IMG/VR virus record: IMGVR_UViG_3300025543_000247
Location: 1 to 22,126 of that record
Direction: 5' to 3' (one strand)
Origin: a virus
Length of the DNA stretch: 22,126 nt
The stretch's first letter is position 1. Each line of letters opens with the position of its first letter. The notes under the pieces are model-generated. The model was not told where the DNA came from. It was given only the letters and a program-made list of their open reading frames with translations, and ran no database searches. The translations under genes were made by a program, and so were the position numbers. Below, one piece after another: positions 17,720-19,397 of this stretch.

Positions 17720-18490
17720 ATGGCATTTAATATTGACGCATTTACTGCCGAAATGCATAGTGTTGGCTTTGCTCGACCAAGCGACTTTGAAGTTGAGATC
17801 GGGGGAGATATTCTTTCAAAAGTTGGTGGTTCTTTTGGATTATCAAGTTCATTGATGCTTCGTGTCAACAGTGCTATTATTCCTGGTCGTGATGTTCAAA
17901 ACTCTGTATATCTTGATTATGGAGCGCCATATAAAGTTGGCACAAAACTCAATTATGTTGATATTCCTATCTCAATTATCTGTAGTCCAGATTTAAGAGA
18001 GCGTGAATTCTTTATGCGCTGGCAAGACTTAATTGGTGGATTGCATCGCAACCCAGGACTAAATGCTGATGATAGGAAGAAACAATTTAACTCGGGATAC
18101 TATGATGATTATGTTTGTAAAAAAGGCATAACAATATACAAACTCGATCAACAAGGGTTTAAAACATACGCAGTTGATTTGATTGATGCATATCCAGTTA
18201 ACATAAATGCAATGGCACTCAGTTGGTCTTCTGGTGCTGAAATGATGAAACTTGATGTGACTTTCTCATATCGTTATTATGAAGAAAGAGATCAATCAAA
18301 ACTAGGAACACAACTTCGCATTGGAAAAGATGGATTACAAATTGCTGGTGGATTGAACTTACCATTTAGTATTGCAGGTATTAAAAATCAAGCAAAAACA
18401 CAATTGAATCCAAGAAAACTAATGACTCAACTTGGAAGAAAATCTGGAGTGAACTTTACTGGATTACCAAAAATAGGAAATTTATTTTAA
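17720..18490 (+). CDS. gp54: Baseplate tail tube initiator gp54
   Basis: 256 residues from ATG 17720; T4 gp54 has 320. It has the pattern of a tube-fold protein: an N-terminal strand (SDFEVEIGG), RVNSAIIPGRDVQNSVYLDY, then YVDIPISIICSPDLREREFF, and later a KGITIYKLDQQG strand with AVDLIDAYPVNINAMALSWS and KLDVTFSYRYYEE. The same layout occurs in the tail tube protein gp19 and in gp48/gp54. In T4, gp54 sits on gp48 and starts tube polymerisation. The C-terminal 60 residues are basic and glycine-rich. The gene lies between gp2 and the gp26-type gene. A tail tube protein is the main alternative, but tube genes usually pair with the sheath gene gp18, not seen here. Confidence 0.72.
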   Translation: MAFNIDAFTAEMHSVGFARPSDFEVEIGGDILSKVGGSFGLSSSLMLRVNSAIIPGRDVQNSVYLDYGAPYKVGTKLNYVDIPISIICSPDLREREFFMRWQDLIGGLHRNPGLNADDRKKQFNSGYYDDYVCKKGITIYKLDQQGFKTYAVDLIDAYPVNINAMALSWSSGAEMMKLDVTFSYRYYEERDQSKLGTQLRIGKDGLQIAGGLNLPFSIAGIKNQAKTQLNPRKLMTQLGRKSGVNFTGLPKIGNLF

Positions 18491-18510: not shown

Positions 18511-19221
18511 ATGGCTTTACCAAAACTAACTACGCCTGAATTTGAAACATTGATTCCATCGACTAAGGACCCAATTAAGTTTCGACCATTTTTAGTTAAA
18601 GAAGAAAAAAATCTATATATTGCTCTTGAGAGCGGCGAAGAAAAAGATATGAAAAATGCAATTCTCAATGTTCTTGAGTCTTGTATTTTAACACCAGATG
18701 TGAATGTAAAAAAACTTACTTCATATGATGTTGAATATATTTTTTTAAAGTTACGGAGCAAATCTGTAGGAGAAGTTATTGAACTTAAAGTTGGTCATAA
18801 AAATAGTGAGTGTAAAGCAATCACAGACGTTTCAATAAACGTTGATGATATTGAAGTTCATTTTGATCAAGAACATAAAGATGTGATTCAGTTTGACAAT
18901 GGTATTGGAATTAAACTAAAATCGCCTGACTTGAATAAACTTCTCGTTGGTGTGAACAATAAAAAGTCTGAGATTGAAAATGTATTTGAAACAATTGCCT
19001 CATGTGTTGTACATGTATTTGACCAAGAAAACGTTTATGAAGATTTTACTGAACAAGAGTTAATGGAATTTTTAGAAAATCTTTCTCAAAACCATTTTCG
19101 TGAAATTCAAAATTTCTTTGATACAATGCCTAAATTATATCATGATATTGAATTTACCTGTAAAGTATGTGGTGAAACTGAATCAATTCGACTTGAAGGT
19201 TTACAAAGTTTTTTTACGTGA
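18511..19221 (+). CDS. gp26: gp26-type baseplate hub / tape-measure chaperone
   Basis: 236 residues. The opening (ALPKLTTPEFETLIPSTKD, then IKFRPFLVKEEKNLYIALES) and the C-terminal CKVCGETESIRLEGLQSFF are features I recognise in gp26-type hub proteins of T4-like phages. Cys217 and Cys220 form one CxxC pair; a second pair is not obvious, so zinc binding is unproven. In T4, gp26 and gp51 are needed for hub assembly around gp29. The position immediately before the tape measure gene is that of tail assembly chaperones in many phages. GGAG lies eight bases before the ATG. The last codons run over a T TTT TTT heptamer, and the TGA overlaps the ATG of the next frame. It could equally be labelled gp51. 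Confidence 0.75.
   Translation: MALPKLTTPEFETLIPSTKDPIKFRPFLVKEEKNLYIALESGEEKDMKNAILNVLESCILTPDVNVKKLTSYDVEYIFLKLRSKSVGEVIELKVGHKNSECKAITDVSINVDDIEVHFDQEHKDVIQFDNGIGIKLKSPDLNKLLVGVNNKKSEIENVFETIASCVVHVFDQENVYEDFTEQELMEFLENLSQNHFREIQNFFDTMPKLYHDIEFTCKVCGETESIRLEGLQSFFT
19209..19215 (+). promoter_or_regulatory. Candidate -1 programmed frameshift site
   Basis: Seven T residues placed exactly as T TTT TTT relative to the gp26 frame, two codons before its stop codon. A -1 slip re-pairs both tRNAs perfectly. Reading then continues TAC GTG ATG into the following frame with no stop until 19395-19397, giving a fused protein of about 295 residues. GAAGG (19195-19199) lies nine bases upstream, where Shine-Dalgarno-like stimulators of -1 shifting are found. 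No strong downstream hairpin was seen. Confidence 0.6.
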
Positions 19222-19397
19222 TGCTCAGTCATGATTCTTTAATGAATATGTATTATACAAATTTTAGTTTAATGCAGCATCACAAATACTCGTTGACTGA
19301 GTTGGAAGAAATGATACCATTTGAAAGACAGATATATGTTCATTTGCTATTAAAATACTTAGAAGAAGAAAAAGAAAGATTAGAGAGTAAGAAATAA
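19221..19397 (+). CDS. Small overlapping frame after gp26 (chaperone extension or gp51-like)
   Basis: 58 codons if started at ATG 19221, which overlaps the gp26 TGA (TGATG). It ends at TAA 19395-19397, which overlaps the gp29 ATG. The product is helical: MLSHDSLMNMYYTNFSLMQH, then KYSLTELEEMIPFERQIYVH and a charged LLLKYLEEEKERLE tail. The pattern Y-S-x-x-E-L-E-x-MIPFER-Y resembles small tail-chaperone C-terminal domains of myophages. There is no Shine-Dalgarno sequence at the right distance, so expression should be by coupling, by -1 frameshifting from gp26, or both. A frame kept open between two overlapping genes strongly suggests it is real. Confidence 0.7.
   Translation: MLSHDSLMNMYYTNFSLMQHHKYSLTELEEMIPFERQIYVHLLLKYLEEEKERLESKK

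Follow-up and report, generated by a model that had tools for sequence, protein, structure and literature searches.

The closest described systems are the tail assembly chaperone genes of the T4-like phages and of lambda. Vladimirov, Gautam and Davidson reportedly identified gp26 and gp51 as tail assembly chaperones (TAC-N/TAC-NC) in Virology in 2022, and the abstract of that work is said to describe frameshifting as conserved in several T4-like groups, with genes 26 and 51 forming the T4 pair. Where the PRFect paper cites the 2022 Virology work, it describes some T4-like phages as having one short gene and one longer fusion gene (PMC10885494), and the passage of the phage Adele paper that cites the same work mentions poly-T slip sites in T4-like TAC-N genes (2025, PMC12846349). 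In the review by Atkins, lambda G/GT frameshifting before the tape measure gene is described as widely conserved "except T4" (PMC5009743).

The locus examined here comes from a marine T4-like phage. The window, which is the whole stretch of DNA analysed, comprises 22,126 bases of virus record IMGVR_UViG_3300025543_000247 and carries T4-like tail genes. From its sequence and that of its relatives, we conclude that the gp26 gene and the -1 frame following it very probably constitute one programmed -1 ribosomal frameshift gene for two forms of a tail assembly chaperone. The chaperone role we infer from gene order, homology to T4 gp26/gp51, and analogy with lambda.

The gp26-type gene and its -1 continuation

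The genes and the slip site are arranged as follows.

18511 to 19221, + strand: gp26-type gene, putative short chaperone (TAC-N), 236 aa, starting at the ATG at 18511
19209 to 19215, + strand: slippery heptamer T TTT TTT, in phase
19215 to 19397, + strand: -1 frame continuation, putative C-terminal chaperone domain (TAC-C; "gp51" in cyanophage annotation), 60 codons plus TAA
19397 to 21100, + strand: tape measure protein gene, 567 aa, directly after the chaperone; matches to the phrog_305, phrog_1272 and phrog_6090 profiles with E values of 2e-8 to 1e-4

The junction reads GAA GGT TTA CAA AGT TTT TTT ACG TGA TGC, with gp26 codons TTT at 19210, TTT at 19213, ACG at 19216, and TGA at 19219. Counted from the ATG at 18511, these codon positions place T TTT TTT in the canonical X XXY YYZ phase, as the first-pass annotation had claimed; that annotation set the heptamer two codons before the gp26 stop, but only one codon, ACG, separates it from the TGA. 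After the slip, the -1 frame would continue as TAC GTG ATG CTC AGT CAT ... and is open for 60 codons up to the TAA at 19395-19397, the last A of which is the first base of the tape measure ATG at 19397, again in agreement with the earlier reading. The predicted fusion has 235 + 60 = 295 residues, with ...LQSFFYVMLSHDSLMNMYY... predicted across the junction, so that the 236-residue form and the fusion of about 295 residues proposed earlier both have the expected lengths.

The gp26-type protein matches PF12322 (T4_baseplate; E 1.4e-58) and the phrog_150 profile (baseplate hub; E 2.7e-63), and it is homologous to T4 gp26 over its length (hhalign E 2.8e-19). Its AlphaFold model is confident (pLDDT 89). 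A fold search of this model against the PDB gave no significant match, the hit of highest probability being the HK97 tail assembly chaperone 2ob9 (0.47; a weak match, with E 0.73 and TM 0.46 by target length), and the top matches in a viral fold library were for the most part further proteins of the gp26 type. When the profiles of gp26 and of the C-domain were searched against the sequences of solved structures, nothing credible was returned. The gene preceding gp26 (17720-18490) matches a tail tube profile (phrog_45, E 2.6e-32), and the gene at this position in relatives is annotated as tail tube or baseplate tail tube initiator.

The C-domain, for which three helices are predicted, matches phrog_634 (baseplate hub assembly catalyst, gp51) with an E value of 8.6e-23. 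The fusion had been suggested to exist "in place of, or in addition to" a separate gp51-like product, and this match identifies the -1 frame as the gp51-type domain itself. The C-domain is also similar to the last 50 residues of T4 gp51 (blastp E 1e-6; hhalign E 7.7e-6). In addition, it matches positions 236-279 of phrog_150, the gp26 family, which means that in some proteins of this family the two parts are joined. The gene for this domain is unannotated in the records of S-CAM4, Klebsiella T765, Vibrio SUMAE, and Acinetobacter SH-Ab 15599, and none of the annotated phage records examined marks the join between gp26 and the C-domain.

According to the proposed mechanism, most ribosomes would stop at the TGA at 19219 and release the 236-residue TAC-N, while a minority would slip back one base on T TTT TTT, helped by a Shine-Dalgarno-like GAAGG upstream and by RNA structure downstream. 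The slipped ribosomes would produce the 295-residue TAC-NC with its gp51-type helical C-terminal domain. If the analogy with lambda gpG/gpGT holds, both forms would bind the tape measure protein encoded by the neighbouring gene, and tube subunits would be recruited through the C-terminal domain as the tail is assembled.

Conservation of the frame relation and the slip site

Taken by itself, the window's heptamer is weak evidence, since T TTT TTN arises near the gp26 end in 40% of synonymous draws (last 8 residues fixed, window's codon usage). In-phase XXXYYYZ heptamers number 34 across the 5,491 codons of the window's genes, so such sites are common in this genome of 37% G+C. The 60-codon -1 frame following the heptamer is unmatched in the window, where the next longest after any in-phase heptamer has 35 codons. 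It is conservation among relatives that makes the frameshift observation secure; a chance origin of the heptamer and the -1 frame was considered and rejected.

Relatives were collected by three viral-contig scans, using the gp26 protein and profiles of both domains, together with named phage records. Both domains were found at 234 loci, on the same strand in 231; the remaining three loci (T4, phiAS4, and KM16) belong to T4-type phages with the domains on opposite strands. Relative to gp26, the C-domain lies in the -1 frame at every one of the 231 same-strand loci and never in the +1 frame, and a search for in-frame fusions of the two domains on one strand found none among them. An in-phase T TTT TTN with an open -1 frame is present in 229 of the 231. 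This uniformity bears on the reading that a sequencing error or recent mutation broke one continuous gene. Homopolymer runs are error-prone and phrog_150, the gp26 profile, spans both frames, but two further contigs carry the same sequence and the same -1 relation recurs in 231/231 relatives, so that the reading is already refuted by conservation and its probability is negligible. Stop-codon readthrough was likewise rejected, because the frames differ.

Removal of near-duplicates left 175 distinct junctions that are less than 85% identical, that is, they differ by more than 15% in nucleotides, and 173 of these have an in-phase T TTT TTN. The codon preceding the Phe codons of the heptamer ends in T in 173/173 junctions, and the first Phe codon is TTT in 173/173, compared to 71% of the Phe codons elsewhere in these genes. 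The log-probabilities attached to these codon statistics (about 1e-26 each) are overstated, because related junctions were treated as independent; the wobble-T and first-TTT rules themselves have no exception among the 173 junctions. Heptamer conservation and synonymous constraint, for which the first-pass annotation had proposed aligning relatives, are therefore both found (173/175 junctions; invariant wobble T and TTT). The pattern that it had named as speaking against the frameshift, relatives lacking the heptamer while keeping the TGATG overlap, does not occur in the 175 distinct junctions.

The heptamer is TTTTTTC in 111 of the 173 junctions, TTTTTTT in 53, TTTTTTA in 7, and TTTTTTG in 2. 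As a rival to ribosomal slippage, transcriptional slippage on the run of T would add a base to some mRNAs and so join the frames. Seven consecutive T are present in the window, and polymerases can slip on long T runs, with high efficiency on a run of nine (PMC5009743). However, the run stops after six T in 120/173 relatives, where the next base is C, A, or G; a run of six is short for efficient polymerase slippage, and the X XXY YYZ phase, the Shine-Dalgarno-like element, and the downstream RNA structure fit slippage of the ribosome. We consider transcriptional slippage very unlikely.

The start codons at the junction bear on a further alternative, termination-coupled reinitiation, in which ribosomes would stop at the TGA at 19219 and restart at the following ATG to make a separate 58-residue gp51-like protein and no fusion.

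19221 to 19223, + strand: ATG overlapping the gp26 stop (TGATG), possible reinitiation start, not conserved (read from the sequence and the relatives' junctions)

The TGATG overlap is present at the gp26 stop, "gp51" is annotated as a separate gene in cyanophage records, and 70/173 junctions have an ATG in the usable stretch. In 90/173 junctions, however, the -1 frame offers no ATG, GTG, or TTG as far as 15 nt beyond the stop, yet the -1 frame and the heptamer are kept, which argues against reinitiation as the general mechanism. In the window, no Shine-Dalgarno-like sequence stands at the right spacing before 19221. Moreover, reinitiation leaves unexplained the invariant wobble T, the TTT codons, and the union of the two domains in a single T4 polypeptide, gp51. 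We therefore give reinitiation in place of a fusion only a slim chance. The TGATG alternative raised in the first-pass annotation thus falls as a general mechanism but stands in one respect: the ATG at 19221 is there, and a free 58-residue product is possible in this phage as a minor extra alongside the frameshift product.

Several loci depart from the common arrangement. In Ackermannviridae (Klebsiella T765, Salmonella Det7, and 15 viral contigs; L068:2285-2320, L074:2270-2310, L239-L253), the C-domain is kept in the -1 frame, and the junction reads GAR ATT TTC ATT TAA, without a canonical heptamer. In Vibrio phages SUMAE and D533 (L070:2115-2135, L071:2065-2085), CTT TTC (A CTT TTC) replaces T TTT TTN and is followed by an open -1 frame; A CTT TTC is perhaps a related non-canonical slip site. 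No relatives of the D533 gp26 turned up in a scan for them. The C-domain and the tape measure gene are separated by one or two additional small genes in Pelagibacter phage Mosig (L055:3186-3588), Sinorhizobium phiM12 (L062:2394-2813), and Rhizobium phages (L064:2369-2794).

Sequence elements flanking the slip site

Three further elements flank the heptamer in the window.

19195 to 19199, + strand: Shine-Dalgarno-like GAAGG, likely 5' stimulator, 9 nt before the heptamer and at the same position in relatives
19223 to 19231, + strand: 5' arm of a predicted stem, GCTCAGTCA, 7 nt after the heptamer, predicted to pair with 19294-19302
19294 to 19302, + strand: 3' arm of the predicted stem, TGACTGAGT, forming a 9-pair stem with 19223-19231

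The GAAGG at 19195-19199 lies nine bases upstream of the heptamer, where it had been noticed at first reading. A GAGGG/GAAGG-type motif starting 12-13 nt before the heptamer is present in 151/173 junctions, mostly encoding a conserved Glu-Gly. GAG accounts for 89/128 (70%) of its Glu codons, compared to 28% elsewhere in the gene, and its Gly codon is less often GGT (23% versus 48%). The excess of GAG and the depletion of GGT indicate that the nucleotides of the motif are themselves selected, beyond the protein that they encode.

Downstream of the slip, the following 75 nt are more stable than expected from protein-preserving resampling of each gene's codons, with a dMFE of -3.85 +/- 0.44 kcal/mol, versus -0.9 to -1.9 kcal/mol in control windows put to the same test (six gp26 windows and one further downstream). 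A column-wise codon shuffle agrees (-15.9 versus -11.7 kcal/mol). Like the motif upstream, the additional downstream structure is thus under selection on the nucleotides. All 9 pairs of the stem predicted in the window are kept in 9/161 relatives, compared to 1.5 expected under codon shuffling, and some relatives keep the predicted stem with changes on both sides, as in L081 (CTCAGCCA/TGGCTGAG) and L165 (CTCTGTCA/TGACAGAG). One conserved stem for all relatives was considered and rejected: only 14/161 relatives can form at least 8 of the 9 pairs of the window's stem, the average pairing of 0.564 is close to the codon-shuffled null of 0.555, and other relatives fold differently. Since most relatives use other pairings, what can be claimed in general is that the region is structured, not that it forms the window's particular stem.

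A selected RNA element within the C-domain frame may set the level of frameshifting and change between lineages while the heptamer stays fixed, making the TAC-N:TAC-NC ratio tunable in each lineage, with a long-range stem (~62-nt loop) here and in some relatives and a compact hairpin in others. We put this forward tentatively and regard it as less likely to be right than wrong. The fusion of the gp26-type gene to the downstream frame, as originally proposed, is supported by the frame relation, the conservation of the heptamer, the synonymous constraint, the missing start codons, and the downstream RNA structure together.

Comparison with known chaperone systems

The system is already known in T4-like phages, and the phage of the window is a well-supported further case. 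It shares with the TAC-N/TAC-NC system the same genes in the same order before the tape measure gene, the N part being homologous to T4 gp26 and the C part to the C terminus of T4 gp51, directly before the tape measure gene. In this analysis, we measured both the constraint acting on the upstream element and the structure downstream. The labels "gp26 baseplate hub subunit" and "gp51 baseplate hub assembly catalyst", which stand in hundreds of phage records, would in marine and many other T4-like phages denote one frameshifted tail assembly chaperone gene.

In phage Adele (Vandenendeviridae/Andersonviridae), too, a -1 frameshift precedes the tape measure gene and takes place at a poly-T motif, but the motif is GTTTTT and the phage belongs to a different group (PMC12846349). 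The likeness to lambda gpG/gpGT lies in the place before the tape measure gene and in the pairing of a short form with a rarer -1 extended form (PMC5009743), with no sequence similarity claimed. In contrast to lambda, the phage of the window is a contractile-tailed, T4-like phage with a larger N domain (236 aa). The heptamer of lambda gpG/gpGT also differs from T TTT TTT.

T4 differs in that genes 26 and 51 stand apart, on opposite strands, and its second domain does not continue gene 26 in the -1 frame. The N-terminal part of T4 gp51 (249 aa) aligns with T4 gp26 (E 2e-6), and profile comparisons agree. T4 gp51 thus consists of a gp26-like part plus the C-domain, suggesting that two genes in T4 do what a frameshift does in these phages. 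Judged by these alignments, gene 26 of T4 appears to supply the short form and gene 51 the long one. The two arrangements would provide a natural contrast for the study of tail assembly, most lineages producing the two forms by frameshift and the T4 lineage producing the same two from separate genes.
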